From assembly GCF_021134715.1 (NCBI RefSeq), contig NC_060026.1, positions 930,001-994,000 of the forward strand: DNA of 64,000 bases, in the 5' to 3' direction. This DNA is from Daphnia pulex (taxonomy: Eukaryota; Arthropoda; Branchiopoda; Diplostraca; Daphniidae). Positions 785 through 59,659 of the stretch are shown here, piece by piece (within the stretch, counting starts at the first letter, position 1; the number at the start of each line of letters is the position of its first letter). Below the pieces are notes generated by a model. The model was given only the letters and a program-made list of their open reading frames with translations, did not search any database and was not told the DNA's origin. Position numbers and translations under genes: made by a program.

Positions 785-1439
785 CTGAGAATGTCAGCTT
801 TTATTACGCAAGGTAGGAAAAAATTTGACTATTACCTAGTAGTGGCTGGCAACAGTTTCCCAGTAAGATAGATATCAGTACCACCTCTGATAGTGATAGG
901 AGATTCATTTTCAGTTGCCTGACTGCCAAAGTTGTTTTTCAATTTTTCGTAACATTCACACTCGAGAAAACAACAGTTGAATGCGATACAGTTCCAAAAT
1001 TAGGATCAAAGTTTTGAGTTGATCTGTTAGACTTGTGAGAAACAAATGCCCCGCCTTGCAGGTTCCATAATTTTCGGTGAATGGAGCCTTTCTGGCCCGT
1101 TTCGAGTGATCGCGGTTCGAGATTACATTTCCTCGATAATGTCTACGACCACAGGGTTGGTAAAATTGGAAATAACGTAGCAGAAAGAGTGTGCCAGTAT
1201 CACTTCCGCTGCGAGCTGGCTTCCTTAAAATAAGTAATGGACCCGGCCAGGCCCCCTCAAATTAGTCACAGTGTTAGAAAGCTAATAGTCAATTAATGAT
1301 GATGACTAATTGCGTATTAGGGCATCACTATTTTTGTTTCGGGGGTGGGGGAGAACAAGAATCACATTTTTGCTATTAAACAGTTCATTACTCTGAGTCG
1401 AAATATTGAATAACAAGCTTCCGCTCCTTTTTCACGCAA

Positions 1440-1815: not shown

Positions 1816-2579
1816 AACGTTAATGTTGACTAGTTATACACATACGTTGCCATCGTTGGGCAATTTAAAAGAACCACCTTCGTTTCGTCGGTTTGGCCAT
1901 GGATGATGACTAATGGTTTGGTTAAAAATATTCCAACCGCTAAAGCGATGGGATAATGATGTTGTTTAGGATTTGCTTGACGGATTCCGAAATTATTCGT
2001 AACCTTTTTACTTTGTCCCCTCTGTTTCCATTGCATATTTGCATCTCAAAATCCATTTGTTTCAATCAAGTAAAGTATTTACGCGGCTCGTCTTCAGACA
2101 AGATCAACATTTGTTGTTGGCAAAGGATTTCTTGGTACTAAGACAAAGAACTAGACATTATTTTTTTTTTCGAAACTATGATTAAACTGGAATCATTTGT
2201 CTTGCATTTTTTGTTTTATGCATGCGACCGAACATGTCATGGATAGACGGCGTCCCAATTCGTCAAACTAATAGCTTTTATAACAATAACTGTCGCTTTT
2301 TTAATCCATCCGACGATGAGGATGATTGACGTTTTATTCCATTGATTTTATCGAATGTTTATTTTGCAAGACGGATCGTTTCAGTGGTGTTCCGTTTCCC
2401 TCGACTTTACGAGCAATCAGAACGGCCACTTTTCAGTAGCCTATGTTACATGTTCGTTGTCACGCAAGACGACGCAAGATGTCGACCGTGTTATATTTAA
2501 TGTATTAAATCTATTTTTTTTTTAAATTTAATCTCCATAAGTTATATTTAACATTCCTGTTTAGTTGAAAGAGAAAGAA

Positions 2580-3260
2580 TAATCGTTTCTCTACAATATG
2601 AACAGTTTCACATGTAACTGTTTTTAGGGTAAAACCAGTTTTTCATGAGCGCTGTGCACGAAATGACGTCCAAATAGGGGCCGTGTTTTCTCGTTACAGT
2701 TCCTGTTAATTGCCAAATCGTAATTTAATCAATCAAATGGAAAAACGGCTCAGCTAATTGCCATTATTTACTCAAAATCGTCGAAATGATGGCGGACTTT
2801 TCAAACGTTTCTTCGAAATTGCGAAAGTGTTCCAGAATCGCGAAACTTTTCGAAAACAAACAAACCAAAATGCTGGTGATCATGGTGTCGATATGAATCA
2901 TATCCTCCGGCTTCAAAACTTTCGTTAAGCTCTCTTCCTATATTAAGAAATTATCGAGAGTCCTATTGCTCTCAAATGACTGGGCAGCTTCTGGATATTT
3001 ACCAAATGTGAACTATATCCTTGTCTCCAGAGAATGAGATCCTCCACCAGGTTAAACCTTAAGACGCTGTCAATCGGGAAATATTTGTAGTTGAATCCGC
3101 AATCGTCGTGGAGATCCACAATGCCTCCGCCGCATAGGTTCATCAACTTCCTTTTCGAAGTTTTCGGTGAATTCACTAAAAATGACGCATCTCCAAAAAG
3201 TTTTAGAGCTCAAAATTGATTTGAAATTCCGACGGGGTCTGTGCAATTTGAATTTTAAAA
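2580..3260 (-). pseudogene. Conserved unknown exon of the tandem array, copy A
   Basis: The open stretch 2943..3176 reads on the minus strand as a conserved peptide around GGGIVDLHDDCGFNYKYF and LVEDLILWRQGYSSHLV. Near-identical peptides occur at 7609..7812 (same strand) and 15493..15702 (opposite strand). Conservation extends across flanking non-coding sequence, including a segment around 2630-2700 and the ATGATGGCGGACTTTTC stretch. I do not recognise the domain. Its place between a signal-peptide-like exon and Ig exons suggests an N-terminal extracellular exon of the RTK-like gene family. It lacks a convincing own start and is probably part of a broken gene. Confidence 0.45.
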
Positions 3261-12827: not shown

Positions 12828-15266
12828 CAGTGCCGGTCCACTTATGCGACCACTTTGTGCAGCGGTCGTATAATTGGATGGTCGCATAACCGGCCAAATG
12901 AATTAGTAGTAAGTAGAAGGTGATGACTGAATCTTATTAACACTTTGCTTTAAGAAAACCAATTTTATATTTAATACTAAGAACGAGTAGAAAATATTAA
13001 AGACGTAGAATAAAATAGAAGACTAGAATAAAGAGAATAAAGTAGAAGAAATAGATAAGACTAGAAATAATACCAAATGATGAAAACAAACAGAGTTAAA
13101 CATTTTGAATATGGTCACGCAACTTTTTGGCGAGTTCAAGCAGAACGGGGTCATTAATGGGCATACTTATTGCTTCAGAAGCATATTTTAACAAATTGAG
13201 ACGCAATTCCGTTTCGGGATCAGAGATCTGATCGATCGATATCGTGATATCCTCAGTGATTTCCCAATCTCCCTGACTAATGAGATGACTATCACAAGGG
13301 CTGTATGAAATGAAGGATTCTGCAACGGATGCATTTAAAAATTCATCCACCTCCGAAGCTAGCAGCAAATCATCACTTGCAACAATTTCAGGATCATCCT
13401 CGAGACTGATCCACCGTTTAACTAGATGGGCCTCATTGCCGTCAATAAGATCGGAAAAACCAGCTGAAATATGGACATTTGAAATTGCTTCGGTCAATTC
13501 ACGCACAATCGATTCAACCTGCTTATAATTGGTTGGTCGAGGTTCAGGTGTCGAAGGCTGGGGCAAATGCGAAAGGCATTTAGAATGACGCCAACAATTT
13601 ATAATGGTAGATGCGGAAAGATTGTCCCATGATTGGCGAATAATCTGGCCTGCGTCTAAAATATTCGCTGGACAACCTAGATTGAGACCTTTTCTTCCTT
13701 GTTTTGCTTGACTGGCTAACTGTTGCATGCGTTCAATGTCTTCATACGCCTCGATGAACTTCGATAGCATCAACTTTTTATAATTGATCTTAACAGCGGA
13801 AATGATTCCCTGATCTAGAGGCTGATGAACGGATGTCGAATTGGGTGGAAAGAAAAAGATCGAAACCTGAAAGAAGGGAAAATGTTTTAGAAATCAAAGA
13901 ACAGAATGCCTAAAGAGAGAAAAATGTAACTTTACCTGCCCCGTAGGATCTATACAATTCACATCATGACCCGAGAAGTTATCCATAACAAGAGCAACGG
14001 GTTCGTCTGTCCAGGCACGAACGGCGGGCAAAAAAATATTTCCCCACCAGTGTCGGTAGATAGCCGAATCAACCCAAGCATTTTTTTGATGAATGTAAGG
14101 GACTGGGCAAGGAGAATCACGGAAGCAGTGAGGTTTCGCTGCCGTACCGACAATCAGAGGTTCAATTTTGCAGCTCCCTTAAAAATATAAAGTTGAATGG
14201 TAACAATGTACATCCATCGAAATAGAATGAAATTTAACTTACCATCAACATTGACGCACAACACAAGCGTAACACGATCTTTGGCCTTCAAAGATTTGGT
14301 CCCCCTAACTGTTTTGCGGCTCTCGTTGTAAGCCAGATAAGTTCGCGCAGGCATTGCACGGTAAAAAAGTCCTGTCTCGTCCATGTTAAAAATGTTTTTC
14401 AATTGATAATTGGCCAACTGAACACGCAAGTCACGCATAGCCGGTTCAATAGCACCCACATCTACATCGCCAGCCTCTCCGTACAGGCGGATGCTCGCAC
14501 CAATTTCATAGCGCCTTCTCCAGTTTCGGAACCAACCATCAGATGCGGAAAAACCAGAAATCCCACGAAGTTCAGCTTCACGTAACGCACGAGCTTGAAT
14601 ATGTGCACGTGAAATCGACAAAGGTTTGCACCGAAACTTTGGGTTGCGCATCTCTAAAAACCAATCGTAAACTGCATCGTCAAGTTCCTTATTTTCTGAC
14701 ATATTCTTCGTAACCTTGGCCGACAATTTCAAATCACCACTATCAACGCCTAACAAAATTTCTTCTTGGTTCTTTCCAATCTGTTGCACTTGGGTCTTTG
14801 AAATGCCAAACTCGATCGCAATTTTACGTTGGGAATTACCACTCTTTAACATATCAATCACTTTTAGTTTATCCTTTACAGTTAGCGGAGCTCTCACTTT
14901 TTTCATTTTAAACGCGTCAGTTGGTTTCACACTAAGACAATTGTTTCGTGGGTCTACATTTTCTTTTGTTTTTCCCATTTTTGCGAGCAAGAGATCTGGT
15001 GTTCAGCTTGAGACATCAGAAAAACGACTGACGTAATACATCTTTGTTCGAAAAAGTCGAACCCTTTTCCCATAATGAAGGTCAATGACGCTTAAAAAAA
15101 CAAAAGACCTCGAAAATGGATTAAATTAATCCAAGTGGCGGCATGTTTAGCGGCAGAACAGTTTGAACTAGGGGAATCTCGCGCCAGAAAGTTGTGCAAG
15201 CAAAAGGGTGGTCGTATACCTGGATTGGTCGTATGAGCAGGCGGTCTGATAAGTGGACCGGCACTG
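12828..15266. mobile_element. Complete Tigger/pogo-type DNA transposon
   Basis: The element starts CAGTGCCGGTCCACTTAT and ends with its exact reverse complement, giving 18-bp perfect terminal inverted repeats. It is flanked on both sides by TA (12826-12827 and 15267-15268), the target-site duplication typical of Tc1/mariner-pogo elements. Subterminal GGTCGTAT/GTCGCATA motifs occur several times at each end and are likely transposase-binding sites. Length is 2,439 bp. It encodes one transposase on the minus strand with an unbroken frame across three exons, so the copy looks young and perhaps active. Confidence 0.93.
13096..14990 (-). CDS. Tigger/pogo-family transposase (CENP-B-like), three exons
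   Basis: Exons 14243..14990, 13936..14177 and 13096..13866 join in phase through two short GT-AG introns (65 and 69 nt) to give about 586 residues. An alternative start four codons later (MGKTKENVDP) is equally likely. The N-terminus holds a CENP-B/psq-type helix-turn-helix (LTVKDKLKVIDMLKSG, IAIEFGISKTQVQQI), then a Tc5-type second HTH with GFSASDGWFRNWRRRYEI. The DDE_1 catalytic core shows its three acidic residues: first in IFNMDETGLFYRAMP, second in ALVMDNFSGHDV, third in PPNSTSVHQPLDQGII. The family cuts and pastes DNA at TA sites. All catalytic residues are present and no stop interrupts the spliced frame. The acidic tail is usual for the family. Confidence 0.9.
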
Positions 15267-20823: not shown

Positions 20824-23292
20824 TCATTTTTCTTGATGGAGGTAGTATTTGTTGATCCAATCTCCGTCACCGGCAATCTTGAACCATTCTTCCAAGAATT
20901 TATCGACTTGACATTGAACCTCTTTTCGATCTTCGTCAGACAAATACTTGAGCATCGTCTCCAGTAACTTTTCCCCTCCTTTCAGTGCACGATCAAATAT
21001 AACGGGTCTTTTACCATTGTCGTGGAGCACCAACTCCTTCACGGCATTTGGGCCGAGTTTCTCTGAAAAGCGTTTCATAAAAAGGTCCATTTTTGCAATG
21101 TCGTCGGTTTCGTGGTCTTCCCAATGTTTATCTAGTAGCTCGGCCCATATGCTAAAAAACCTTTTCCTTGGTGGCATGCTGGACTCGCGAGAACCGTTAA
21201 TGTTGATTTGAGTGATTTTAATTGAAGGGATAACAAAATGAACTGTTGTTATAAAGTGAACAAATTGTTGAAGTTGATTATCATTGCTGTAATCGAGGAG
21301 ATAGGTTAAGGTATTCAATGTATAGGTTAAGGTATTCAATGTTGAGCGACAAGTCGGTAAACGATAACTATGAAAATAGGTTGTGGGATCCTTAAAAACT
21401 CGATCTATCAATTCGGGTGCGTTTATTTTCACGAATAGTTGAATTTCTTCTTTGATTTCGAATGGAAAAATTTCCATCCGGGCATCGATATCCCACCCCC
21501 ACAACACAGCTTTGAATAGCGAAGGCATTTCATCAATTTGGTGAAGCAACATTGTTTTCACGGCTTCTCGACCTAAAATGTCAACTTTCTCCGACACGAG
21601 TTTCAATATTTCTTGAATCTTTTCTTCTTTGTAACAACATTGGAATACGTTACTCCATACACTTTTTCGTTCTTCGCCTATGTTACGCAAGGAAGTGACA
21701 ATATTGACAAATTCCTTTAGATGAAATTCGCTGCCGTAATTCAAATAATGTCGCAAAATATTGATAAAATAACATGTGTCACTGAATAATCTATATTTTT
21801 GTTTAAAGTAATCCATGATGTTCGAAGCGAAAAATGTGTCCATTGGAGGTGCGTTATTCTTCCATTGCTGTTTCACTTCCTCTTGGCTTTGGTCCGACAA
21901 ATAGGTTAGCATGCCTTTAACAACGTCTAGTGGCAATTGAATCACGATAGGGCCCTTGTCATCTTCGTGAAGTAAAAGCTTTTTCAGAAAACTGGCACTC
22001 AAGTGTTTAAAACAATCGAAGAACGAAAGAATTATTCGATTGTCCGAGATGGAAGATTCGATGATGTACATTAAAAAATCCCCCCAATAACTGTTTCTTG
22101 GCAGCAGTTGGTCTTGTTTGAGAATGGTGGAGCTTTCCATTTGTTCACCCTTGTTTGAAGAAGTAATAGTTTCAACGAACTCTTCGAGTTGGTCTTTTTT
22201 GAACTGTTTTAATAGGTGATTTGATAACAGACAATATCCGGTGAAAAATCCACTTTTTTTATTGAAAAGTTTTTCCGTAAAATCATCAACTCCTTTAAGT
22301 AGCAAAAGTCCTTGAAGATTTTCGACGTCGATGTAGTGTAGGGATCTTGGTGTTTCATGATTGTGAAAAACTAAATCGTACAAATCTGTGTAATCCTTCA
22401 CATTGTCGTCTCCCATCACGACGATCTTTACCATTGCGTTGAATAATTCTTTTGTTCTACATATGTCAAAAAATGAAACAGAATTTCTTGGGAGATGACG
22501 AAGTATTTGTAATAGTTTTTTTTGCCCAAGTTCTTTCTTGAGACCTTCCAGAATCTTTTGAAACATTTGAATATTTTTAGAATAAATTGCGTCGAAAATT
22601 GCGTCGAAAAGCGCACGAATTACGAATCCCCCTTCGTCTATCAAGTGTTTTTCTAGTGTGTTGCCGGGGAGAACTTGTTTTAAGAAGGCCAACATCTTGT
22701 GATAGATTTCCTTGTGGCCACAGGCGGCAGCCACATAGAATGGCGTGAAACCATATTCATCCCATGCCATGACTTCATTTATTACTTGATCGGCAACATT
22801 TTTGTGCTCCGGATCATTTAAATTTTGGCTAATATTTTTTAACATTTCCTCGATTGCTTCCGTGTTTCCGTGGAAGGCTGCATCGTGAAGGCGAGTCATG
22901 CAATAAGAATCATGTTCTAGAAGTATTATGTTCAGATCCATTCCTGTCACGTCTTCTTCCACTAGCGTAAGAGGAATATAAGTTTTCTGAAAAGCTGTTG
23001 GCTCTAGCATAAGGACTGTGCATTGCATTAGTATCAGAACATTGTTTCTTTCTAGTTCATACAAAACTGCTAGCGCCTTTTCAATTCGTCCACCAATAAA
23101 ATGTTTTTGGTAGTAAAAGGATCCCATAAGCAAGTTCGCAAATTTATAATCGTTGGAATAGGCAATTGATCGAGACAGCAGTCCCAAAAATATTTCAAGA
23201 TGACTCTCGTATTTTTCATTGAAAATAAAAAAGGTCAACATAGGTTGAATATTCAACTCGTTATAAAAAAAAATAATTTTCAAAAGCCTCAC
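20824..23292 (-). CDS. Ankyrin/helical-repeat C-terminal part of the NACHT protein (822 codons)
   Basis: This frame overlaps the end of the NACHT frame by 32 nt and is shifted against it at the T9 run 23265-23273. Its first residues are probably not a real start: removing one T fuses FENYFF to YNELNIQPML and gives one continuous protein. Residues about 131-205 hold two ankyrin-type repeats (TRLHDAAFHGNTEAIEEML; YGFTPFYVAAACGHKEI). The rest is long alpha-helical repeats in which LxLHxxxxxPxxFxxAL followed by MLxYLSDxxxxEV recurs at least three times: LLLHEDDKGPIVI, MLLHQIDEMPSLF, LVLHDNGKRPVIF. In NLR-like proteins the C-terminal repeats sense the ligand, so this is the likely sensor. A partial copy lies at 30.6-31.75 kb. 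The stop is at 20824-20826. Confidence 0.8.
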   Translation of the reverse strand: MRLLKIIFFYNELNIQPMLTFFIFNEKYESHLEIFLGLLSRSIAYSNDYKFANLLMGSFYYQKHFIGGRIEKALAVLYELERNNVLILMQCTVLMLEPTAFQKTYIPLTLVEEDVTGMDLNIILLEHDSYCMTRLHDAAFHGNTEAIEEMLKNISQNLNDPEHKNVADQVINEVMAWDEYGFTPFYVAAACGHKEIYHKMLAFLKQVLPGNTLEKHLIDEGGFVIRALFDAIFDAIYSKNIQMFQKILEGLKKELGQKKLLQILRHLPRNSVSFFDICRTKELFNAMVKIVVMGDDNVKDYTDLYDLVFHNHETPRSLHYIDVENLQGLLLLKGVDDFTEKLFNKKSGFFTGYCLLSNHLLKQFKKDQLEEFVETITSSNKGEQMESSTILKQDQLLPRNSYWGDFLMYIIESSISDNRIILSFFDCFKHLSASFLKKLLLHEDDKGPIVIQLPLDVVKGMLTYLSDQSQEEVKQQWKNNAPPMDTFFASNIMDYFKQKYRLFSDTCYFINILRHYLNYGSEFHLKEFVNIVTSLRNIGEERKSVWSNVFQCCYKEEKIQEILKLVSEKVDILGREAVKTMLLHQIDEMPSLFKAVLWGWDIDARMEIFPFEIKEEIQLFVKINAPELIDRVFKDPTTYFHSYRLPTCRSTLNTLTYTLNTLTYLLDYSNDNQLQQFVHFITTVHFVIPSIKITQININGSRESSMPPRKRFFSIWAELLDKHWEDHETDDIAKMDLFMKRFSEKLGPNAVKELVLHDNGKRPVIFDRALKGGEKLLETMLKYLSDEDRKEVQCQVDKFLEEWFKIAGDGDWINKYYLHQEK

Positions 23293-26200
23293 GTTGATTT
23301 GTCATAAACTGCAACAAGTGGTGGACAGTTTTTTGTTGTTCTTCGCCATTCCACTGAGAATATTCCAAATTACTTGCAAAGAAAAACTGCAGAGATTCTG
23401 ACATATCTCTACCCTCATCAAAGTTCAAGTAATTGATAAATCGTTGAAAACATCGACACTCAACTTTGAAAAAATGTGTGAAATTCAAAACTTCGATAAA
23501 AACGAACATGACGGCTTGAACAAGTTTTCCATCCAAAGTTGCGTCGAGACAATCGCACAATAATGTGAAGATCATCGTGTTCCCAGTCGAAAGAGAAAAA
23601 AGAAGTGCGTTTTCACGAATGAACATTTGGCCTTTAATTGGGCCTTGACGAAGAATGTGAATGTAAAGATGTTCCGCAAATGTCTTCAGTCTGTCTGGTA
23701 AATCGCGTTTAATAATTCTTTTCCGCCATTCATCGTCGTCGTCAACCAATTCTTTCAACATGCCATTGAAAAATACTTGGACGCCATTGTACTCCCGTTT
23801 CACCAGGATTGTGCTCACAATAAATGTTGAGGCAGACTTATCATCGAGCAACTTGTTGTGTCGTTTGTCATCAAGGAGAAACCCATTGAATAAATATCTG
23901 GCGAATAAATACTCAGCGTAGGTGCGATGCAAGAATTGCTGGGTAACATTTGTTGTATCATTTTCTCTGTTTTCGATTGTCAATCCGAAACTCAGACTAT
24001 TCATGGCGATTATCTTTTCGTCAGCAGTTTCGTCATCACTTGACTGATGAGATAACTGAGGTGGCCACAAGATGTCGACGATCTTTTGATCTTCCACAAT
24101 CGTTTTAATGGCCAATTGTGTCAGGTGACTCTCGACGTCTTTGATCAAACGATTAATGGCGTCAGTCACAATTTTGTTTTCAATTGATGATGGTGCTTTA
24201 GCTTTCTCTTCACGAAAAACTTTCCGTTTCGTTTCCATTAAACGATTGAAGAGACTAATTAAATCGAATTTCTTACCGTCAAGTAAATCAGAAATTTCCG
24301 ACTCACGAGGCTCTTCTTTAACTTCAGCACAATTTGATGTTATGAATTCTTTAACATTTGACTGGAAGCATTCGGCTAGAATTTTGCATTGCAACGGGAT
24401 TCCGATAAAAGACTTTTCTTCGTCTTTCAGAGTTTCCGACACTTGTTTGACTAACGATTTGGCAAATTGTTGAAGGGGTTTCTCAATATCTCCTGATAAA
24501 TTTAATTCTTTTACCCAATATGAGGTAAGATGTTTGATTTGATCTTCTTCCGTAAAGTTTTCCAACCTATAAGCCAATTGGGATAACTGGAATTGTAACT
24601 CGTCCAGCATGTGCGGTCGGGTTGTGACATACAGCTGGATTAATCTGTCTTTAGTTATAGACTTCATCCATTCAATAGCGCCTTTTTGACACAGTTCGTT
24701 GATTTCGTCGAATCCGTCAAACATGACTACGATTCGATCTCCCGTCTCCAACCGTTTTCTCAATAACGACCGAGAAAATGAACTTTTGTGATCGACGACG
24801 TATAATCGATTAATAATTAAATCAACCACATCCAAGTCCGTTATTTGATCCAGTTTCAAGACAGCTTCGTAGTCAACTAAATTAATTCTGATTACCCAGT
24901 GGTCCGGATGTGCAATCTTTATTTGCTTATAATAGTATGAGAGAAGAGTAGACTTTCCGGTTCCGGCTACTCCGGAAATTATGACAATTGACTTTTCATT
25001 TCCTTTTTCCTTCAAATTCATCAAATCAATGTCCTCGACAGGTTTACCGGTAGAAGACGCTTGATTAGTAATACCATTCATGATTTTCTTCCATATTTCT
25101 TTTCGTTTTTCCGTTTCGACGAGGACGAGCCATTCGATGTGGCCATCTGAACTGATTCTGCATTCCCCGCCAAGTTCAAACTGATTTTCAAACGGAAATC
25201 GCAATGTCCTCTTGACGTACAGCGATTGCTCAAAGGTTGACGTGCTGAAGGAAGGGATTTTCACTTCGTTCTCTGCTAATAACAATTCATTTGTAGAACT
25301 GAAATTGATCAACTCTTCCGGTTTGTCACCGACAAGGTCTCTTACTTTCACATTTTTCCCTTGAAAGGAAACGATTCTCGACAAAATTCTTTTTTGGAAG
25401 TTGTCACTTAAATCGGTGTACTTGATTTCGTCTTTTATCCCTGCTGTTGATTCATCGCGACTAATTATTATTATAAAATTGTTATCTTCCGCTTTACCTT
25501 CTGGAAATACATTTTCGTGATTTTGGACCGATGCTTCATTATCACAAACGACGACGAGAAAATGATGAGAATATTTTTGTAATTTCAAAATATTCTTCCA
25601 CTTATCTTCCTCGTCTTGTGAAAGACTAGACGGTGTTATTAAGCAATTCCCTTGGCAAATCCCTTTCTGTTTCAATTCCTGCAGTAAATTCTCAATCGCC
25701 GAAATTACTTTGACTGCCGTAAGTTGCGGCGAAGGTGTGGCAATCCGCTGGATTTTTTCCCTTCCGGGAGTATCCATTAAATGTCTCAATTTCTCCTCCA
25801 TCACTTTAATCGCATCGTCATTGAATCCCACCTTCTTATCTAGTTGTTCCTTGTATTGTTTTGAAACATTTTTTAATAAAATGTTCTTTGCTACTTCTGA
25901 TGTCAGCCAAAAATTGGCGTGCTGTCCTATAAACGCTTTTGAAATTCCGTCAAATATTTGCGTCGTTTGATCTTCGCACTTGTCGTTTGGATAATATTTG
26001 CTCACGTCTTTAGTTTCAATAATGTTCTCGAATTTCTCTTCGCTAGGCATATCGACGACAAAAATCAACTTATCAAAGAAATTGTCGACGTCTTCCTCTG
26101 TGATTTTTCCTGGTAGCGGATTCTTGATAGCCGATTGGCCTTTTCCAAAATTGTTGCTCAATTTAAACTTCCAGTCTTTCCAGCTGTCGTTTACACCTAA

Positions 26201-27121
26201 CTCGCAGATCGTTTGACGCAATTTTCTAGCACCTTCTGAAAGATTCACTTCACCCACGAAATCCTGGTGGAATTTCTTTGCGGTACAATCGATGACGTGT
26301 TCATCGACCAAAGCGTCGTGGTAGCTGCTGAGCATTCCAGTACGAATTTGTGTCGTTTTATTATTCGTAGCGCAATCTTTGAGTTCTTTTGCCAGCAGTT
26401 GGACGGGGGACCATTCCTCCTTCAACTGTTTATGCCAATCGTTATTGTTAATTTTTAGTTTGTAATGGGCTGTTTTCTCTGGTGCATCGAACTTTAAAAT
26501 ATCTTCCGACTGGTTATTAATGGACACCAACTCGATTCCAACCTCCTTTAGACTGTTCTCGTCGAAGCCGATATTGGTGCAGATTATGCAATCGTGAATG
26601 TCGTCACCCCTGGCTCTTATCTTGTAAAAAGAATGAAAATATTTCGTTAAATTGAAATCGCCCTTGGGGTTATAATCACGAAGGTGATTTTTGGGAAACG
26701 AGTCACTGGACTCTCCTTTGCGCTTGCAACCAAGGAGGTGATCTGCCGTGATTTTCTCTCCTTCGTTCTCCTTGTGTTTAGCCTGCACGTATCGATATCG
26801 CCAATGTTTACCCGCAGGTGTCGTGTCAGGAACTTCATAGCGGAAAATCAAATCTTCCAGTTTCCCGCCTTCGTCCTCCTTTTCTTTACTCAATTCAAAC
26901 TTGTAACCGGCACCCAGTCCGCGGACACAAAATAGCGCCAACAGTTTGGATTCAAACCTCAAACCGTGGGTGTTATCGGGCATCTTTTTTCCCCTTATCT
27001 CCTTGTTGGCCGTTGGCGATGAATGCGTAAATGACGAGGCAGATGCGTTACTGGATTGCACAACAATTGCATTATCAGCAACAGGCGTTAGTCCGTCACT
27101 ATGCACCAATTCCGACGCCAT
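23261..27121 (-). CDS. Nuclease-like plus NACHT ATPase protein, N-terminal 1,286 codons
   Basis: A single open exon starts at MASELVHSDG. Residues about 50-160 form a domain with GLRFESKLL (Glu57), LEDLIFRYE (Asp90) and YVQAKHKEN (Gln113-x-Lys115). This is the Glu / Asp / (E,Q)xK pattern of PD-(D/E)XK nucleases, in an arrangement recalling the bacterial Cap4-type effector nuclease; that similarity is inference. Residues about 160-700 are not recognised. A NACHT ATPase follows: Walker A GVAGTGKST near 716-724, Walker B IVVMFDGFDEI near 797-806, and the post-NACHT signature FLHRTYAEYLFARYLF near 1062-1077. NACHT proteins are oligomerising switches of innate immunity. The frame ends at a stop directly after a T9 run. 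The downstream frame continues the protein, so the true product is probably about 2,098 residues (see 20824..23292). Four decayed relatives lie in this window. Confidence 0.85.
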   Translation of the reverse strand: MASELVHSDGLTPVADNAIVVQSSNASASSFTHSSPTANKEIRGKKMPDNTHGLRFESKLLALFCVRGLGAGYKFELSKEKEDEGGKLEDLIFRYEVPDTTPAGKHWRYRYVQAKHKENEGEKITADHLLGCKRKGESSDSFPKNHLRDYNPKGDFNLTKYFHSFYKIRARGDDIHDCIICTNIGFDENSLKEVGIELVSINNQSEDILKFDAPEKTAHYKLKINNNDWHKQLKEEWSPVQLLAKELKDCATNNKTTQIRTGMLSSYHDALVDEHVIDCTAKKFHQDFVGEVNLSEGARKLRQTICELGVNDSWKDWKFKLSNNFGKGQSAIKNPLPGKITEEDVDNFFDKLIFVVDMPSEEKFENIIETKDVSKYYPNDKCEDQTTQIFDGISKAFIGQHANFWLTSEVAKNILLKNVSKQYKEQLDKKVGFNDDAIKVMEEKLRHLMDTPGREKIQRIATPSPQLTAVKVISAIENLLQELKQKGICQGNCLITPSSLSQDEEDKWKNILKLQKYSHHFLVVVCDNEASVQNHENVFPEGKAEDNNFIIIISRDESTAGIKDEIKYTDLSDNFQKRILSRIVSFQGKNVKVRDLVGDKPEELINFSSTNELLLAENEVKIPSFSTSTFEQSLYVKRTLRFPFENQFELGGECRISSDGHIEWLVLVETEKRKEIWKKIMNGITNQASSTGKPVEDIDLMNLKEKGNEKSIVIISGVAGTGKSTLLSYYYKQIKIAHPDHWVIRINLVDYEAVLKLDQITDLDVVDLIINRLYVVDHKSSFSRSLLRKRLETGDRIVVMFDGFDEINELCQKGAIEWMKSITKDRLIQLYVTTRPHMLDELQFQLSQLAYRLENFTEEDQIKHLTSYWVKELNLSGDIEKPLQQFAKSLVKQVSETLKDEEKSFIGIPLQCKILAECFQSNVKEFITSNCAEVKEEPRESEISDLLDGKKFDLISLFNRLMETKRKVFREEKAKAPSSIENKIVTDAINRLIKDVESHLTQLAIKTIVEDQKIVDILWPPQLSHQSSDDETADEKIIAMNSLSFGLTIENRENDTTNVTQQFLHRTYAEYLFARYLFNGFLLDDKRHNKLLDDKSASTFIVSTILVKREYNGVQVFFNGMLKELVDDDDEWRKRIIKRDLPDRLKTFAEHLYIHILRQGPIKGQMFIRENALLFSLSTGNTMIFTLLCDCLDATLDGKLVQAVMFVFIEVLNFTHFFKVECRCFQRFINYLNFDEGRDMSESLQFFFASNLEYSQWNGEEQQKTVHHLLQFMTNQREAFENYFFL
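23265..23273 (-). other. T9 run at the frameshift between the two halves of the NACHT gene
   Basis: On the minus strand the sequence is GAAAATTA, nine T, ATAACGAG. With nine T the frame hits TTA-TAA. With eight T it runs straight into the 822-codon frame. It is the only break in about 6.3 kb. Confidence 0.8.
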
Positions 27122-32516: not shown

Positions 32517-35500
32517 TTATTTGTAAATTTTGTATTTGTATTTGATTAATATTTCCTCTTCTTCCAAATAATCTGTGAGTTTTCTTTTTCCAGTCACACT
32601 TTTCTTCTGTGTTGCTGAACAGTTGCCGTTAATGAAAATATTTCCAATGAGTCCGTAAGAAGGGTTTTGCTTTGAAAGCAATTCGTCGAGCCACTTGAAG
32701 CAGAGAAGGCTTCGTCGCAATTGCAACATGGCTTTCTTGATGACTTCGTCTTTGTAGGTCGATTTGATTTCGCCTACTTCGATGTGTACGGAGGAATTTG
32801 CACGCGAAATCTTTACTGGATCATCCATGGTTAAAACTCCGGGCGGTGGGAAAGATAACAAATCGGTTTTACCTTTAATGCTCTGATACAATGCGAGAAG
32901 GAAAATTGGACCGGAAGGTTTATAATAATCGTCCCAGTTACTGATCGGGACTGACAGGTAGTTTTGGAGCGCTCCGCCTTTATAGAATTTAACAACGCTA
33001 TATTCCATTTCCCCCTCTTGATGGAGAAAAGATAATTTTTTTATTTGCTCGTTCAGTCCCGGTTCATTTTTTAGATGATTCTTCGCTTCTTCATAATACC
33101 AATTTAAAAATTCTTTCTCGGTGTTTTCGGTTATGAGATGGTCGACGACACGTTTACAACTTTGGAATGTGTTCGTTTCCGTCCAGTCCTCATCTTGAGC
33201 TTCGCCGTAGCATTTGACTAGTTGGTGTAATGAAGAAATGTTGCGAGCTTCTCCTCTTTCGTTTGATCGCAAATTAGAGCGGATAGCCGATTCGATCAGA
33301 TTACCTAACTTTTCTTGGGCGTTTCCTGTACTTTTTTTAAGTTCTTCCATAGTCTTATTTATTAGTTTAAATTTTTTGTCACAATGATTGCAACATTCCA
33401 CCTCTTTTTTAAGTCTTGTCTTGTCGTTTTTATCGTCGTCCTTATCGTGCGCATCTGGGGTTTTCCCTTCGACCACCTGTAAATGGTTAAATAAAACCCT
33501 TTTGATTGTTTATTCTAGAATTGAATTGAAGTCATCCATGAACAATAATTTACCTCATCTATGTTTTCAAAAGAAGTTCCACAAGATACAGTAGGTTTGG
33601 AAACTTTTCCTCTTTCAATGTCTTGACTTGTACTACTTGACTTCTGCGACGAATCGTCGTTACCATCTTGCGTTGGTTGGACGTGTTTTCTGTATTCTTG
33701 ACTCGTTGCAAATGGGGGGAACAAAGTCTCTAGTTCCTTAACGACAGTTTCAAGTGAAATTCGTTTTTCCGGTTCTGTGTCGATCATGTCACCAATCAAC
33801 TCGTAAACTTTACTCTCCTCATGGTTTGACGCCTGCATGGCTTTTAACGGAAGAAAACGGTTTTCTATTATTTGATCTAGGTCAAATATTTTATTCAAAA
33901 CTTACTTTCAAGCTCGACAGGGTTTTGTTCCACAACAATGTTCCATCGAATGGTGTCATCCTCTTCCCCATAAGGATGAATCCCTCTCGTTAGAAAGTAG
34001 AAGAAAAGGCATCCAAGTGACCACGTATCGCTCGCGATGCTAAAGACGTTGACTGGCTTTTTCCCATCATCGTCGCTATCAGCATCGAAATGATCGAAAT
34101 ATTCCAAAATTTCCGGTGCCATCCAATCGGCAGCGCCGCCTTTGTTGTCATGTCCAATCGAAAATGTTCCTGTGTCAGTCGTAGCCTCACACGAGCCGAA
34201 TTTTGCAATCATCAATCGAACGGGCTCTGACGTTGAAATAAAAACGCTGGAAGGTTTGATGTTCAGGTGGGCGAATTGCTTGCCGTGAATGTACAGTAAA
34301 CCTCTGGCCATCTGCTTCAGGGCTTCGTCGTCACTTGGCATTTTCCCTCTGTAAATGCGGTCGCAAAAGTCATCGACGGTACCAGCGGCCAAATCAAAGA
34401 CGTAAAATCTGTTTTTAAAAAATTCGTTAGTAAACTATCTGCATTTGAACAATCAAACCAACTGACCGAAAATCGACATTTTGCGTGACTTGCAAAAGTT
34501 TGATGACGTTGGGATGATCGAATCTACAAAGAATTTTTTCTTCCTTTTCCTGGAATTCGATTTTGTCAGTTGGAACTCGCTTGATGGCAACTTGTTTTTC
34601 ATTGAAGAAACCACGGAAAACTGCACCGAAATTTCCCGAGCATATCATATTTTTTCTATTATCGAGCATTCTTATTAGATCGCCTAGTGCTTGGTCGAGA
34701 TGATATCCACCAACCATTAGACCACCTCCGACAGCAATGCTGGCCAACGGCTGGCTGACAGTCTTAGGCGACCATTTGTTTTCGTAGATGATGTGTTGAT
34801 CGAACCCTACCAGACCGAAGATGTCGAGGTCGGCCGAGATGTTGTCCATGCCTTTCAGTGTGAGGATTTCATGTTCACTTAAGTCTAATTCTGTTGGAAA
34901 TAATTCCATTATCTGCTCGGCTTTTCTGGTCAATTCAGATTTCATGTTTTCGACAACTTTCTTGTAAAAACGCTCCCCCATTTCGACGGCAAAATGATCG
35001 GTAGTCGATGCAGATGGCAACTGCAGATTTGCGATTTCCAACTCCGATCGAAATTGCTTTAGGCACTCCACCGTTACGTGGACCATACGAATTTTTAATG
35101 TAAAGTCTTCCAAATGTTCAGTAGGAATGGTGGGCTTCTGTTTGTCTGGTTCGAGTGTTGCTTCCCGTAATACGACTTGTTTCACTTCGGAAACCCATTT
35201 TTCACCTTTTTCAAACCAATCTGTTTTGAGTTTTTCCATTTTCTCTTTGACCAAACGTTTGATATCTTCATGATTATGCGACTGCCAAACCTTAATGAGC
35301 GTTTCCTTCATTTGTGTCGTGTTGCTGTCGACAGTTTCATTAATTGTCTCGATGAGATTGCCAACAAGATTTCTGTAACGATGGTTGAGTTTACTTTTAG
35401 TTGTTGCTACGATTCTGACATTCTGATTTTCTGTCAGAATTGTATTTTGTTCGTTAAAGCTTCTGGGAGGAGATGACGTTTGATTCATGGATTTTCTGGA

Positions 35501-38500
35501 TTTTAATAATTTCCAAATAGTGCTCATCTTTTCAAAGGGAGCTGGGTTCCCCACGAGATTCATGATACTTTGACGACGGTAGTCGGACCACGTCGATTTG
35601 TTGCGTAACAAGAAAGTCTCGATGCCATTGAACAAAGAAGCTGTACCTTTCGTAACGAGAAAATTGACGCCACACAGGCTCGGTACATCACCTAGACCTA
35701 ATGCTTTGTCGAGATGATATCCACCAACCATTAGACCACCTCCAACTACAATGCTGATCAACGCCTGGCTGAAAGCCGTAAACGACAATTTGTTTTTGTA
35801 GATGATGTGATTGTCGAACCCTACCAGACCGAATAAGAAGAGTTCAGTCGAGACATTGTCCATGCCTTTCTTTGTGTGGATTTCACGTTCGATGAAGTCG
35901 AGAGAGAAATCGTCGGGGGATTTGGTAGGAACGTAGAGAGCTTGGCGACTTCTCAGATACTTCATAAGGCATTCACGTTCCGCCTTGTCTTCGGTAATTT
36001 TTTCGATCGCTTGTTTGAGATCAACGTCGTCTCTCACTCGAGCACCGGCGATGACGTGAGCCGCCATCAAATCGGCCAACAGGTTTCGATGAGGATTCAG
36101 TGGTAGCAGTTCGATAGCTTTGAGTAATTCAGAATCTTCTTCCGACTTAAGCCATTGCCGTATGACGATTTCGATTGCGAAATTCCTCCCCAACAGACCC
36201 ATGACTGCGTCTTCATAAGCGGGACATTGTGGGTAGCAGAACTCCTGGCCGTTGTAGTCTGGGGCGAGATATCCTTGTCGATCGATTATTTTCTGATTTT
36301 CCAATTCAGCCAAAATATTTTTGCGTTCAACTGGATCGATATGGATGCCACGCAAGTCGTCTTCCATTAACTGGTACTGGCATTTTGTTATTGCATTGAA
36401 TTCTTTGAGTTGGGTTAGGTTCAGGCGACCCATTTTGTTGAGCTCGAATGTTTTCTTCCTGCGACGATAGTCATTTTCCTTTAGAATATCTTTGACGTAC
36501 TTTTCCCGAAACACAATTTTCTTTTTCATTTCTTCCGCTGTGTAAGGCATTGGGCTAATAAAGAAAACGTAATCTTTGGATGTAAAGTCGATTATCAACT
36601 TCTCTTTTCGATCAAGTTTAGGTTCAATGTCGCACTCTGATTCGTCCATGATGACAAAATCGATTGCATCTTTCAAAACTCTTTTTTTGACCATGTTCTT
36701 CCAAAAAGATTTTCTGGTGCAGGAAATTTCAATTTCTTTTTTTATTTCCTTCTCAATCTTTTTTTCATCCCATGTTGGATTGGATACTTTATAAAAAACA
36801 GACGACAGATTTTCTTCCAGCGACGTTGGTTTGTCAACGTTATGGATGATGGCTACATGCTGGATAGCAGCTTTTTTATTCGGAACAGTTTCGTCATCGT
36901 TTAACTTTGGCTGGACGATGCAATCGGTTTTCAGTTGTTCAAACAATGTGTCCACTTTTTGGCCATCGATTCCGGCTTGTTCCAGATCGGAAGCGGAGCA
37001 GTAATGACTGCCCAGCAGGGTCCTGATGGAATTGATATAATGGCCTAAGAGATTTGCGATGTTGACTTTTTGCTGATTGTAGGCATTGGTGACGCAGAAT
37101 GAATGTCTTTGACTGAGATTTTGGTTGATTTTGCGATAAAAAGACATTTGCATGCGAATGTGCTCGTTCAAAATCGTTTCACTGCTTCGTAACATCTTTT
37201 TTATAATACAAGTTTGCTTATTTTCCCCTTTCTTTTCTTTGATGGTGAGAAATGCGAGATAATAGGGAGCGACAGGATAGAAGAAGGCGTCGCTTGATTG
37301 AACTAGTTTTTCTAAAAGGCTTGCGGAATTCTTCCTTGCTTCCGCTTTTTTGTTTGGTCCAGTGATGACTTGTGGCAAAACCTTGGCGAAATTTATTCCC
37401 CACTTTTTTTGTGCTAAATGTTTGGCCAGAGCAACAGAACGGCCAGGTAGCATCCAGCTAATGTCGCTCGGGGATTCAGAAAGTTGCAGTTTGTTTATTA
37501 AACTGGCCTTGAGATATTCTGTGTGATTAAACATTTTCACATCATCCGTTTCATCAAGCCACAAGGCCCATTGGTCCAGTGCGCTGTGACACATAAGTCG
37601 GATCTCTACATCTTCCTTGTCTCTCATTTGATTCTTCAGATCGGCGTACTTTTTCGAGAAAATGTCAAAACATCTAATTTGATTTTTTGTGCTCTTGCAA
37701 TCTTCTTGCAGTCGAGCGATTCTCTGCAATTCTTCTCGGTGACACTCATCTTTCATGCTAAAAAACTTTGCAACAGACAATTCAGTGTCTGTACTGTGCT
37801 CTTGTGTTTCTTTTGTTTTCATCCCGTCATGGCATTGGAAGAGGATGAGAATTCCACTGCCGGGTGCTCCATTTCTTCCCGAACGGCCCATTGCTTGCAT
37901 GAAGATTCTTTCGTTCAGCGGCAAGTAGGTCATGCAAATGTGGAGACCTCCATTTTTGAGTAATTCGTCGCTGATTTTGATGTCCGTTCCCCTTCCGGCC
38001 AAATTGGTGGCGATGATGACGTGGCCGATTTCCAATTGTTTGGCTTCAAAAGTGAATTGCTCGTAATCACGGGTATAACGATGAACCTTTTTGTTTGCAA
38101 TCAGTTGTGGGAGATTAATTTTCAGGTGATTATGAATGACGTTGACGTCTTTGATGGTTTGGCAAAATATGACGATAGAACGGGCCTCTTCCTCGTTCGG
38201 AGTAAGAACCGTCTCTCGTATTTCATTGATGATGGAAGACAGCCAACTCTCCTTTGTCTTTAAAACCTTGGGCGTTTTGAAACGGAAGCGTTTTGAAAAG
38301 GCCGTTGGGATGGAAACGTAGTCACAATAGTAGGAATTCATCATATAATTTCGCTCCTTTTGGGATCCCAGCGTTCCTGACACACCGGCTAACCTTGCGT
38401 ATTTGTTTATGTACACCTCGTTGGAAATGAAAACAGCTTTTAGACTCTGCGGCGTTAATTTGCAGCCTTCCTTTAACTGGAGGAATTGGTGCAGGGCTCC

Positions 38501-41500
38501 ATCCCACTGGGACGTGGTTTGGTCCGTTCCGGTGTCAGGATCGATGATAATCACTTGGGGGTTTAAATCCGGACTTGTGTCTGTTCGATCTTGATCGATG
38601 ACGTAGTCCTCGTCTTGTTTCAGTTCCAAAGCCCGTAAGGCGTTGGCCAGCCAAGTGTCCAAATGTCGATCGACAAAGGCCAGCAGGTGCTCGGGGATTC
38701 GGATGTGACGCTCGCGCTCGATGACTTTGCGAAAGAAGAAGATCAATTTTGGATTTAGGACTGGATTATCTTTACAATCGATCTTGTTTTCTTCCACGTT
38801 CTTAATCAGCAAACGTCCATATGGGTCAATAATTCTGGCCTGAATGAGGTAATGCCACAGCTCATTCTGTTCCGTTGGTTTATCTTTCAATGGGGCGTGA
38901 ATTGTCTCCAAATCTTTCTTACCGATCGCACCGTAGAGATCGTAGAGGACTTGTGATTTGATGACATCCAATTGGACGGATGTTTGAATTCTTTCCCAAA
39001 TGAACACGTACAAAGACTCGAGCATTTCCATTCCGGGTATGTCGTGCGAGAGGTAAAGGATGTTGCTGCCGCGATCGAGCAACATGCAGTCTAACTCGTC
39101 AACGATGATGAAATCCAGCTTACGATCCCCGCGAATATTGAGACCATAGAAGGTGTGCAACAAGTAGTCACGCTGGAAATTGGCCAGTTCTCCGTAGACG
39201 ACGTCCGCGTTGTACGCCTTGACGCGATCGTCTTGTGATTGGCTGCAGTTATTGGCCACTCCCACTTTAAAAAACTCGTAGAGTTCCCTCAGACCACCGT
39301 CGTCCTTAGACAAGGTGGAGTCACGTAGGGCTAGCACGTCGTTACTCGTGACAACGTCAACTTTCTGTCCGGAAAGAGCGCAGAAAATGGCCACGCCCGC
39401 GACGATCAACGACTTTCCTTCGCCAGTCGATACCTGGACGAGGATATTGTTCTCAGTCTGAAATTCTTTGAGCAAAAACATGATGGCCACTCGCTGTGTG
39501 TCGCGCAGTGTAAACCCCATCACGAGTTCGACGACACTGTCGTAGACGTGGAGATATTCGGCCAACAAAAACGACGATTCGCTTCCCTCCACTTCTATTT
39601 GTCTTGTGTCCCATTTTCTAGAGTAAAATTTTTTCATGTTATCTTTAAGTGTTTTAATCAGTTCATTTAATCGTTCTCCGGTTTTCTTTTTTGTTTTTTC
39701 GTTTTTTTGTTTTTGTTTTAAGTTTCGTTGTTCCAAATGTATCATGTTGTTTTTGATTTTATGAAAGATATTAGAAAATTGTTGATCAAATCTCTCTTCT
39801 ACTGGTTTTCTCTGCTCTTCTTCTTCTACTATGGACATTATCGTTTCCCAGTTTCTCTCTTTCATTGATTCTGTCGAATTCGTGCACGGATAGAGAGTCT
39901 TTCTCAGTTTATCTACTAACTCGGGTAGCTCCTTGATGTCTACAAGTTCGGTGTCGTAAATCTTTTCTCCTTTTTGGTATTCCAACTCCAGCAGCAAATA
40001 GACGGCCTCTTTCATTAGTGTCTCCAATTCTCCATGACGTAATAGATCTCCTGCATTCAATTGATTTACTTTTTTCTCCCATATTTTGCTTCTTAACTCG
40101 TACAGCCAGTCGTTTAGTGGAAGTTGACTCAGAAGTTCAATCGGGAGTTGATCGACGTTCTCTGAGCCTATTTCATCTGATTCGGATTTTACCGGTAACA
40201 TTTTCAAGATCTGTTCCATCGTGCTGAAAGTGCAATCACCGAAATCAGTTGCCATGATGAGACTGTTTCGTATTAGGGCCATTGTTTGATCGTCTAGATT
40301 TTTTAGACTCGCCAGTATTTCTTCCTTCCAAACGCTTCTGTTCTTCGGCAGTTCCGTCAGCCGCTCTTCCATTTCCAGCAAAAGGAATTCATATTTCCAG
40401 TCTTTTGGATCAGTACATTTCGAAACTATGTAAAGGTAGAAAACGGGACTAACATTTCTTTTGTTGTACTCCAACACCCTTTCAGTTAATAAGCGAATAT
40501 CAGGTGCAAGTTGCTCTAGTTGTCTTTGAATCGCCGCATCATTTTTCTCTCCTTCTGCTGTTGGTAATTGATCGAAATGCTTTTCCAACAAAAGTTGAGA
40601 CAATTTATCGGGTGTGACACCGTCTTCTGGATTCAGCATGTCAATAGATGCGATGAGATCGTGATGGTTCCATTTTGTCAACAGGCCATTCAAAGTAGAA
40701 AAAGAATTGGTTTGCTGCGTGACAGACTGTAACAAGTCCATTGGTAATTGATTGCAAAACTGGTGGAGGCTGTCATTGGCTTTTAGTCGTTGCCATTCAC
40801 CATCACCTTTGTACAGGACAAAGTGATTTTGTTTTAAAGAAGAGTTAGGATTAAAAGTTATTTTGTGCTTGAATGACGACGAATCATTTTGGTCTTCGTA
40901 GACGTAAATTGTTATGTGGAGGACTTCAGCTAGAAATTCCACTTCGGGCAAGTCCAATTCACCTAAAGATGACTGTATGAAACAGACGTATTCTTCTGAT
41001 AGTTCTGGTGGTTGTAGCCAATCGAATTGGCTCTCATCGTCATTCTGTTGTCTGCATGTCAAGAATTCCTTCTTCCTGGCGCTGGCGTAGGGAAAGGCTT
41101 TGCCATCATTTTGTCGCAGCACAAAATTCCTGACGGCGATCATTTGATTGGCCTCGTTTTCTTTGTTGTGAAAGAAATCGACAATTTGTTGCCGAAACTT
41201 GTTCGTATCTGCACATACGTACAATCCGGCTGAATTCATTCTTCCCAAAATGCTGTGCAGGGCGCTGTCATTTCCGTTAACCGTTGGTAAGAGATCGAGA
41301 CAGGTGATTTTAGACGAAAGATGCTGGAAGTGCAAGTCCACTGCTGGTCGGCACCCTCTTTGCCCCACAGTGAAAGAGCTGAGCGAATTTTGAACCTTAG
41401 TTGTTCTTGATGCCGATGGCTTGACGTAACATTGTCTGAATTCTTCTCGCTGTTGACTCCGTTGGCATGACAAACGATGAAGTTGGGCCTCTTTCTCGTC

Positions 41501-42067
41501 AATCTGTCGGATCAATTTGTCAATTTGGTCGTCAGTGAGGTCCTTTCGATACCGGGATAATATTTGATTGGTCAGTGACGACTTAAAATGTTGGAAATAA
41601 CTGGGAACAAGGATGGCGAAACGGGGAGTCGTTTTGAACAGAGACGGCTGACCGAGTATCAGTTCGAGATATTGAGACTTGCACCAGTCCCGCAGCTTTG
41701 ATTCAGCTGTTAATTTGTGATGAATGTCTTCGAAGGAATTGATGGGTTTCAGCTGCTGTAATAACTCGGATGTTTGGGTGTTGAAATCGAACGATTTCTC
41801 CAGATCAGTAAAAGCCTTTTCAAAACACGCGCGAAACCACATTTCCAAGACAATTTTGACGTATTGCCTCTCAACCCAAGTGGTTTCCAAACAAGAGATT
41901 TGACGTCCTACAATTGACTCGATGTGATTGACGGCATCTTCGTAAAATTTCGTTTCGACGTCAGCATTCAGTTCGTTAACAACCCATTTTTTCATTTCTT
42001 CCGCGGCATGTTGTTCAGTGTAACGGTCTGATGGCGTCATGCCAGGACTTGTATCTGCTGCAGCCAT
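32517..42067 (-). CDS. Giant OTU-like / SecA-type ATPase / pseudokinase / nuclease-like protein
   Basis: Exons 34467..42067, 34408..33906, 33876..33554 and 33476..32517 give about 3,128 residues from MAAADTSPGM. Residues about 250-420 resemble an OTU domain (NGNDSALHSILG; NHFVLYKG), but the catalytic Cys position is Ser. Residues about 850-1420 are a SecA-type motor: Walker A VSTGEGKS (near 880), VDELDCMLLD (989), QWDGALHQFLQLKEG and LAGVSGTLGS (1226), ATNLAGRGTDIKI (1359), MQAMGRSGRNGAPGSG (1395). A 60-residue module with VGGGLMVGGYHLD occurs twice (about 2065-2125 and 2405-2465). A kinase domain follows: SGNFGAVFRG, VAIKRV, then HLNIKPSS for HRDIKPSN and AKFGS for DFG, so it is a pseudokinase of IRE1/RNase L type (DWMAPEIL, LGCLFFYFLTRGIHPYG). 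The last exon holds HIEVGEIKST near 3040, an ExK nuclease-like motif. I know no named homologue with this whole architecture. The frame near 33877-33905 needs checking. Confidence 0.8.
33877..33905 (-). other. 29-nt mini-intron or one-base frameshift in the large gene
   Basis: GTAAGT at 33905 and CTAG at 33877 would bound an intron of only 29 nt that keeps phase; a second AG gives 41 nt. Alternatively one extra T in the TTTT at 33894-33897 restores the frame without splicing and reads ELESKFLNKIFDLDQIIENR. One of these must hold for the kinase domain to continue. Confidence 0.6.
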
Positions 42068-57543: not shown

Positions 57544-59659
57544 CTAATCCTTGTCATCAAATTGACCCATCAGGATCGATTTTAAATAGCCTGGAGTGGA
57601 AGATTGTTCATCCGGATGGATGGATGCGTAGTCAAGGCCGTCTGACGTGGCCCCAACTTCCGCCGAAAACTGGTTCAACATGGAAGAAGTTGCCGATGGA
57701 TCGTTGCCGAAATCTCCACCGACCACCATGCACGACTGAGTCAAATGCTCTTCGATGGCTTGACTCAGGGCGTCGCTCAATCTCGGCTGGGCCATTTGTA
57801 ACGTGTGAATTTGTTCCACCTCCTCGGCCGGCTGTTGCTGCTGTTGCTGTTCCTCCTGTTGTTGCTGCTCCTCGATAAATTGGCCAATTTCAGCTACGGC
57901 CGCATCCAGCGATATTTTCTCCACAACTTTACGGTGAGTCTTACGGTGAGCGTAAAAATTGGCAGCCACTCGGAACGCTTTACCGCAAGTGTCACACACG
58001 TACGGCTTCTCTCCCGTCTGACGTAATAACACAATGTGGTCAATTGTGCACGTAATTTCCGAGATTTAAAAGGAAAGCAAAAAAAAAAAAACTAGGAAGA
58101 AATTGTCTACTAGACTCACGTGAATAGACAAATGAACTTTTAAGTCACGTAGGACTTTGAAAGACTTGCTGCAGTGAGGGCAAACGTGTTGGCGTGACGT
58201 GGCGTGAACGTGCTGCCGATGGCTGCTCCTTGCCGAACTGGACGTGAAAGTCTTGCTGCACTGTTTACAGGGGTAAGGTTTCTCTCCCGTCTGTTGGAAC
58301 ACGAACTTATTATATCAAACATGGCTTTAAAAATAAATTGGTCGTGATTATTTTTATCGTGTACATGTCGGCGTGTGTGCGAGGCCATGCTGGACCGCGA
58401 CGTGAAAGACATGAAGCAGATTCCGCAGCTGAACTGCTTGACACCATTGTGCGAATTGAGGTGAAACTGGAGAGCTTGCTTAGTCTTGACTCCTTTGCCA
58501 CAGAGATCGCAAACCTGCCCATAAGAAAAGGTAAATTATAAACGTGAAATTTTAACCAATTAGAAAGATGATAGTAGTTGGGTTTATAATTACGTAAGGT
58601 TTGGAATCCGAGTGGGTCGTTTGGACGTGGGTGGTCAAATTGCCCTTGGCGGAGAATCGTTTCCCGCAGATTTCGCAGGTAAATGCTAAGCGATCGGATT
58701 CGGGCAAATGTGAACGGGACATGTGTGATTTGAGGTGCGAGGCCAACTTGTACTGCTTGCCGCACTCGGTGCACACGTGAGGTCGGCTGTCAGAATGGGC
58801 CACTTTGTGGGCGAGGAGTTTGGAACGATCCTGAAAGACTTTGTCGCAAGACGGGCACTTGTATTCAGACAGGTGAGCCGTCCGGTGTCTCTTGTAGGTG
58901 TGGCTTGACTTGATGACTTTACCACACAATTGGCACGGGAACAAAGGACTGGCTTGGTGCTCTTGTGCATAGTGTTTGGCCACTTGCTTCATGGTCCCTT
59001 TGATTATCTCGTTGCACAGCTGGCAGGGCCAGGTTTGATTGTTTCCGCTCCCAAAGAGGAAAGAGTATATCCCCCGATCATCTCCTTTCTCTATAAATTT
59101 CTTCAGCTGGTCAACTTCTTCAGGCTTGAGAACTCTGCCAATCTTCTGCTCGAGATATTCTAGTGTGAAACGGGACTTTTTATCTGAAGCTAACAGGAGG
59201 TTACTCTCTGCATGAGAGTCATTCACTTCTGTCAGTTTAATTTGTGTTGTCTCTTCGGCAGCCTGAGGTGGTAGTTTCCCATTTACTTGGATAGGTCCAG
59301 AATCTTTGCTGCAATTTTGCCTGTAAAAAGGAATAGTAATTGAGTATTTTGCAAGTAAGTGAAATTTGTGTCATATCTCACCGCTCCTTGACAACTGATT
59401 GAGCTTCCGTGCAGGATCTGACAAACTTCTGCCAATCAGTGATTTTTATTGTGCACTGCTTACAAATGAAATTGGGGGAAATGTCATTCAGTTTTAACTT
59501 AATTCCAATGTTTTTGTGGATAAAACTAAGAGGAATGATATCAGAGATTGCAGACAAGTCGACACAAGAATTGCTCGATTGGCCACAGAGCCGGCATTCA
59601 AGCAACGGTTCCTGGAGACCGTTGCTAATAAAATTAAGGCTCTCTTCTTCTAGATTCAT
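57544..59659 (-). CDS. ZAD-domain C2H2 zinc-finger protein
   Basis: Exons 59382..59659, 58594..59320, 58365..58514, 58120..58290 and 57544..58017 join in phase to 599 residues. The N-terminal zinc-finger-associated domain shows CRLCG and FICKQC Cys pairs at about residues 18-70; ZAD is an arthropod-expanded dimerisation domain. About ten C2H2 fingers follow (for example CQLCGKVIKSSHTYKRHRTAH, CTECGKQYKLASHLKSHMSRSH), the last two preceded by TGEKPY linkers. Introns fall at finger boundaries. The C-terminus is Gln-rich (EEQQQQEEQQQQQQ) and acidic, perhaps an activation region. It is a probable DNA-binding transcription regulator in the nucleus; the target is unknown. The start MNLEEESLNF is chosen because the ZAD follows directly; the open frame extends further upstream without homology. 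Confidence 0.9.

Follow-up and report, generated by a model that had tools for sequence, protein, structure and literature searches.

SecA-type ATPase core, OTU fold, IRE1-like pseudokinase and ExK motif in one open gene of Daphnia pulex

Introduction

What is a SecA-type motor core doing in a nuclear gene of an animal, and to which other domains is it joined? In bacteria and plastids, SecA drives protein export. The gene LOC124204625 of Daphnia pulex lies in a stretch of 64,000 nucleotides (the window) that is part of contig C10 (16,340,441 bases) of a 133-Mb genome in 13 contigs. A sequence-only reading of this stretch had described a single protein with an OTU-like fold, a complete SecA-type motor, an IRE1/RNase L-like pseudokinase and a terminal nuclease-like domain, and had regarded SecA as not a standard animal nuclear gene.

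SecA-like genes in arthropods are known but barely described, and the fusion is the unusual part. Phage WO has two SecA homologues, placed in its eukaryotic association module, that are nearer to invertebrates than to bacteria; the SecA-domain proteins are named wHa_3920 and wHa_3930 (PMC5062602). A "eukaryotic-like secA" module is present in WOHa2 (PMC9203015). SecA-like domains are found in effectors of the endosymbiont Amoebophilus (PMC3482391), and Legionella fallonii has a SecA DEAD-like protein (PMC4256840). A silkworm gene carrying the annotation secA shows differing silk-gland expression (PMC4328555). Other papers concern ordinary Sec export (PMC7397232, PMC11521996). Searches of open-licence PMC papers yielded no description of LOC124204625, of an OTU-SecA pairing or of a SecA-kinase fusion.

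Gene Structure and Surroundings

The gene runs on the minus strand from an ATG at 42067 to a TAA ending at 32517, exactly the limits that the sequence-only reading had given (Table 1). Its four exons, once spliced and translated, reproduce the NCBI protein with no letter different, and the three introns (58, 65, and 77 nt) are all of the GT-AG type. The best database match carries the name "uncharacterized protein LOC124204625 [Daphnia pulex]" (3116 aa). The kinase N-lobe and the SecA core fall within one stop-free frame of 2546 aa. Taken from the sequence, these data support a single open gene, located on a chromosome of an animal, that combines an OTU fold, a SecA-type ATPase core, an IRE1-like pseudokinase and an ExK motif. 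A tblastn search with the 2546-aa frame found no second SecA copy elsewhere in the window, and Rfam gave no match.

Table 1. Features of LOC124204625, in window positions and protein residues.
Feature	Position	Residues	Strand	Basis or remark
Whole gene, 3116 aa	32517..42067		-	4 exons; splice product is P0003 / LOC124204625
Exons	42067-34467, 34408-33906, 33840-33554, 33476-32517		-	
OTU-fold domain	40763..41374	232-435	-	Ser268 in place of the nucleophile Cys; His415 kept
SecA-type ATPase core (NBD1, insert at PPXD position, NBD2)	37832..39547	841-1412	-	Pfam, PDB sequences, profile against canonical SecA, own profile
Duplicated segment, copy A	35697..35890	2060-2124	-	84.6% DNA identity to copy B
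Duplicated segment, copy B	34683..34876	2398-2462	-	Directly before the kinase
IRE1-like pseudokinase, three exons	33662..34660	about 2470-2761	-	Pfam, PDB IRE1 1.7e-25, motifs
Last exon, restriction-endonuclease-like motif	32517..33476	2798-3116	-	D3015, E3033-x-K3035, Q3049

The rest of the window holds several other reading frames. An NLR-like NACHT frame of 1286 aa (20824-27121; NACHT 7e-9) follows the SecA gene on the same strand at a distance of about 5.4 kb. Its N-terminal part (KLEDLIFRYE..YRYVQAKHKE) contains, by eye, a possible D..QxK nuclease motif, and it overlaps an 822-aa frame with weak ankyrin matches. NACHT homologues occur in arthropods including Daphnia, and NACHT and SecA are both among the eukaryotic-like domains of phage WO (PMC5062602). 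Also on the minus strand are a frame with Tc5 transposase and CENP-B-type DNA-binding domains (14154-14990) and frames with C2H2 zinc fingers (57544-59226). Between 1 and 32 kb, and again at 42-47 kb, the window is rich in direct and inverted repeats that have diverged to 73-92% identity.

The SecA-Type Motor Core

The SecA motifs reported from the sequence are all present and in order: VSTGEGKS at residue 879, VDELD at 989, QWDGALHQ at 1187, SGTLGS at 1230, TNLAGRGTD at 1354, and GRSGRNG at 1394. Profile and sequence searches agree with them. Pfam matches SecA_DEAD (7.4e-33) and P-loop_SecA (1.9e-9), with SecA_PP_bind under its cut-off, and SecA chains of the PDB match in a sequence search at 1e-32. 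These values, like the IRE1 similarity described below (1.7e-25), lie far beyond chance for sequence comparisons. When a profile of nine family members was compared by hhalign with one built from six canonical SecAs, the two aligned over E. coli residues 33-588 (E 8.2e-48). This span corresponds to NBD1 and NBD2 with the insert at the PPXD place between them. The two nucleotide-binding domains of canonical SecA, their ATPase motifs and the insert between them are therefore collinear with LOC124204625.

The motor had been called complete. This proved too strong, since the profile alignment reaches no further than E. coli residue 588, where the second nucleotide-binding domain ends, and SecA_SW (scaffold/wing) has no Pfam match at E <= 0.1; by these comparisons neither scaffold/wing nor zinc-binding tail appears to follow NBD2, and what the gene encodes is the core. 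With 131 bits against 800 bits, it also falls far below the curated SecA cut-offs.

An OTU Fold Without the Nucleophile

Residues 232-435 have the OTU fold, which they share with OTU deubiquitinases including the Wolbachia wMel OTU (6w9r). The fold was thus rightly named, but the domain departs from those enzymes at the catalytic cysteine. Among 27 aligned rows, one of them unreadable at this site, the cysteine is present in 0 of 26; 25 have serine and one has asparagine. OTU-profile matches lie at the equivalent relative position in insect and Wolbachia SecA-like proteins. The ubiquitin-cutting activity has apparently been lost. Ubiquitin binding by this pseudo-OTU is a guess, and the catalytic-site histidine is variable too, being kept in 14 of the 27 aligned rows.

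The Pseudokinase and the ExK Tail

Behind the SecA part follows a domain with an IRE1-type kinase fold. Its best PDB kinase matches are IRE1 chains (1.7e-25, the match ending at residue 2745), and the A2 profile matches it at 3.6e-30. HRD is changed to HLN and DFG to KFG, while the VAIK lysine is present. The identification as an IRE1-like pseudokinase is thereby supported. Residues 2477-2836 (window 33.5-34.6 kb) also match mad6, the PADLOC model of a bacterial defence kinase associated with methylation (E 3.6e-47). The kinase exon has 153 matches genome-wide in D. pulex; the three nearest are on the same chromosome, 415-423 kb off and 70-79% identical, and they likewise lack HRD and DFG.

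The last exon carries the residues of a PD-(D/E)XK motif and has 22 database relatives at E <= 0.01. A tail alignment of 23 rows was built from 20 of these relatives (the near-copies P0125 and P0126 were omitted), the window, P0127 and L050. In its 22 readable rows the D is present in all 22, the Q in 20 and ExK in 15, so that seven lack ExK. The claim of a terminal nuclease-like domain holds as far as the D..ExK..Q motif goes, and it is from this motif that the domain identity is argued. Restriction-endonuclease families are absent from the Pfam and PDB sequence matches of the tail, except for a weak ERCC4 match of one member (E 0.013), and AlphaFold2 modelled the last exon at pLDDT 42 from an alignment of seven sequences. 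The tail may possibly be a nucleic-acid-cutting domain. Tox-REase-8, a restriction-endonuclease-like toxin domain of endosymbionts and arthropods, occurs in Daphnia and insects (PMC3482391) and was considered as a possible identity of this tail.

The order of a kinase followed by a nuclease-like domain, which had been likened to IRE1 and RNase L, stands, and it is also found apart from SecA in other Daphnia. IRE1 and RNase L differ in having a KEN nuclease, whereas LOC124204625 has an ExK motif and dead kinase motifs; KEN was absent from the Pfam matches of the kinase exon, the last exon and the stand-alone relatives. KEN is a HEPN domain, and HEPN has expanded in Daphnia (PMC3710099).

A SecA-Like Family Shared With Intracellular Bacteria

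The D. pulex genome has 12 SecA_DEAD matches on nine contigs, one of them with internal stops. Relatives among the 120 listed (of 411) come from insects, Artemia, a nematode, Wolbachia, and Rickettsiales. The view that SecA is not a standard animal nuclear gene was therefore half right, given these 12 matches and the relatives in many arthropods. Bacterial contamination is ruled out because the gene has introns, the contig measures 16.3 Mb and the matches are spread across nine contigs.

The SecA genes of D. pulex fall into two classes, the long ones like LOC124204625 (class 1) and L024-L028 (class 2), which match the LOC124204625 protein solely in and just behind the SecA core. A tree was computed from 56 rows and 558 columns; 34 of the 120 listed proteins entered, and L070 and L072 were left out for poor coverage. 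Canonical SecA is set apart with support of 100/100. Class 1 forms a clade (100/97), and so does class 2 (100/100), which is joined to two bacterial rows (97/91). Three Wolbachia rows are nested inside a fork of insects, Artemia, the nematode and Rickettsiales MAGs (99/90). One protein collected as a relative, L061, grouped with canonical SecA. Further bacterial rows belong to Legionellales, Rickettsiales and one MAG of unnamed kind; their order is unsure because several have long branches. The groups were the same with or without the very long row L062 and four further rows. The trees gave no sign of a recent origin from the canonical SecA of Rickettsia or Legionellales, the canonical SecAs standing apart (100/100).

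LOC124204625 shares its clade with the giant SecA-like proteins of arthropods and Wolbachia and has the pseudo-OTU in front, as they do. The Wolbachia proteins (3438-3952 aa) resemble it in the SecA core (44-45%) and in the position of the pseudo-OTU; they differ in having no pseudokinase or ExK tail among the Pfam domains listed. They may correspond to wHa_3920 and wHa_3930.

Several relatives bear on how such genes moved. P0081 of Artemia franciscana shares 79% identity with a Wolbachia SecA-like protein, and P0115 of Chilo suppressalis 74%, which suggests recent transfer or insertion. L024-L028 (contigs C10, C2, C12, C4, and C8) join a Legionellales MAG and an unnamed bacterium, apart from class 1; two separate entries of SecA-like genes into the D. 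pulex genome are possible. A 3274-aa frame of a Legionellaceae MAG (L056:4012-13833) pairs the SecA core with a weak Scabin-like match of ADP-ribosyltransferase type (7.9e-5, below cut-off), so the core also sits in differently built giant proteins. We infer that the family arose among the proteins of intracellular bacteria and was later exchanged with their hosts.

The Join Between SecA and the Pseudokinase

Pseudokinase and ExK tail form a stand-alone gene in D. carinata, D. sinensis, and D. magna, with proteins of 599-691 aa. Among the closest SecA relatives, similarity breaks off at residue 2397-2400 in P0005-P0008 and P0010 (72-75%), which have 7-52 residues remaining; P0004 (82%) ends at 2392 and P0009 (66%) at 2235. 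The only one of the 120 relatives listed (of 411) with a kinase in the precomputed Pfam list is LOC124204625 itself. At the join lies the duplicated segment, and the single copy of these closest SecA relatives aligns to both of its copies. Residues 2470-3116 found no match in 11 other SecA stretches of D. pulex (L019-L029, each 9.9 kb, L019 ending 0.3 kb behind its SecA gene). A decayed kinase-ExK copy, broken by stops, is present on C5. Judged among the 120 of 411 relatives listed, the fusion looks derived and rare, because the kinase-ExK genes stand alone elsewhere, the relatives end before the kinase and a single one has a kinase. A formerly separate pseudokinase-ExK gene has very probably joined behind the SecA gene, beside a duplicated piece of it.

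How much this union matters to the protein can be read in several ways. The fusion may be a recent and nearly neutral read-through, the motor keeping its old job and the tail being a passenger or decaying. The position of the join at a duplicated segment, the broken copy on C5 and the single fused relative among 120 listed would all suit this. A tail frame that is fully open, with clean GT-AG introns and its D, ExK, and Q residues intact, speaks against it, and we regard it as possible without being probable. The sequence-only reading proposed, by analogy with the kinase of IRE1 and RNase L, a single sensor machine whose terminal nuclease would be activated by the SecA motor and the pseudokinase; this is doubtful and somewhat less probable. 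All its parts lie in one open gene, the order of pseudokinase and ExK is kept in other Daphnia and D..ExK..Q is intact. The idea is weakened because three other Daphnia have the tail as a separate gene, and because the closest SecA relatives stop short of it; no other SecA family member among the relatives listed has the tail, KEN is missing and the nuclease fold is putative. That two separate genes, or an assembly join, have been read as one is very unlikely: the gene is known from one assembly and kinase-ExK is separate in three other Daphnia species, but the kinase N-lobe shares the stop-free frame of the SecA core, the contig is 16.3 Mb long and the splice sites reproduce the NCBI protein.

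Discussion

LOC124204625 very probably belongs, as one of several D. pulex members, to an arthropod family of giant proteins in which a pseudo-OTU precedes a SecA-type ATPase core and a long C-terminal part. These proteins fall into one clade with those of Wolbachia and other intracellular bacteria, far from canonical SecA, and in this member a pseudokinase-ExK gene has been joined on. As a whole, identity and working mechanism together, this explanation is about evenly balanced between holding and failing.

The likeliest mechanism is put forward with low confidence. The motor core, with all ATPase motifs present and the canonical scaffold and tail lacking, would work in the cytosol, using ATP to grip a polypeptide and perhaps to thread it. 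The dead OTU would provide the surface on which a partner docks, plausibly ubiquitin or a ubiquitin-like tag. The pseudokinase would hold or pair the terminal nuclease-like domain and so bring motor and effector to the same target. The setting would be host-symbiont or host-parasite conflict. The SecA motor usually occurs without the tail, so the tail says little on the function of the family. Slightly more doubtful still is the broader proposal that arthropods and their intracellular bacteria exchange a hitherto undescribed class of ATP-driven, tag-guided protein-threading machines built of pseudo-OTU and SecA core, one of which D. pulex may have armed with a pseudokinase-held nuclease; it would then be an animal immune effector with a motor of the SecA superfamily.

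What is rare is the fusion, and likewise the pairing of a dead OTU with a SecA core; animal SecA-like genes as such are not. The SecA core is here a multi-copy nuclear gene family in an animal, tied to Wolbachia and other intracellular bacteria, and it is paired with an OTU fold whose nucleophile is missing from every readable row. This raises the question of what task a SecA motor has in animal cells without a Sec channel, and the local fusion shows the kind of effector that can be attached to it.
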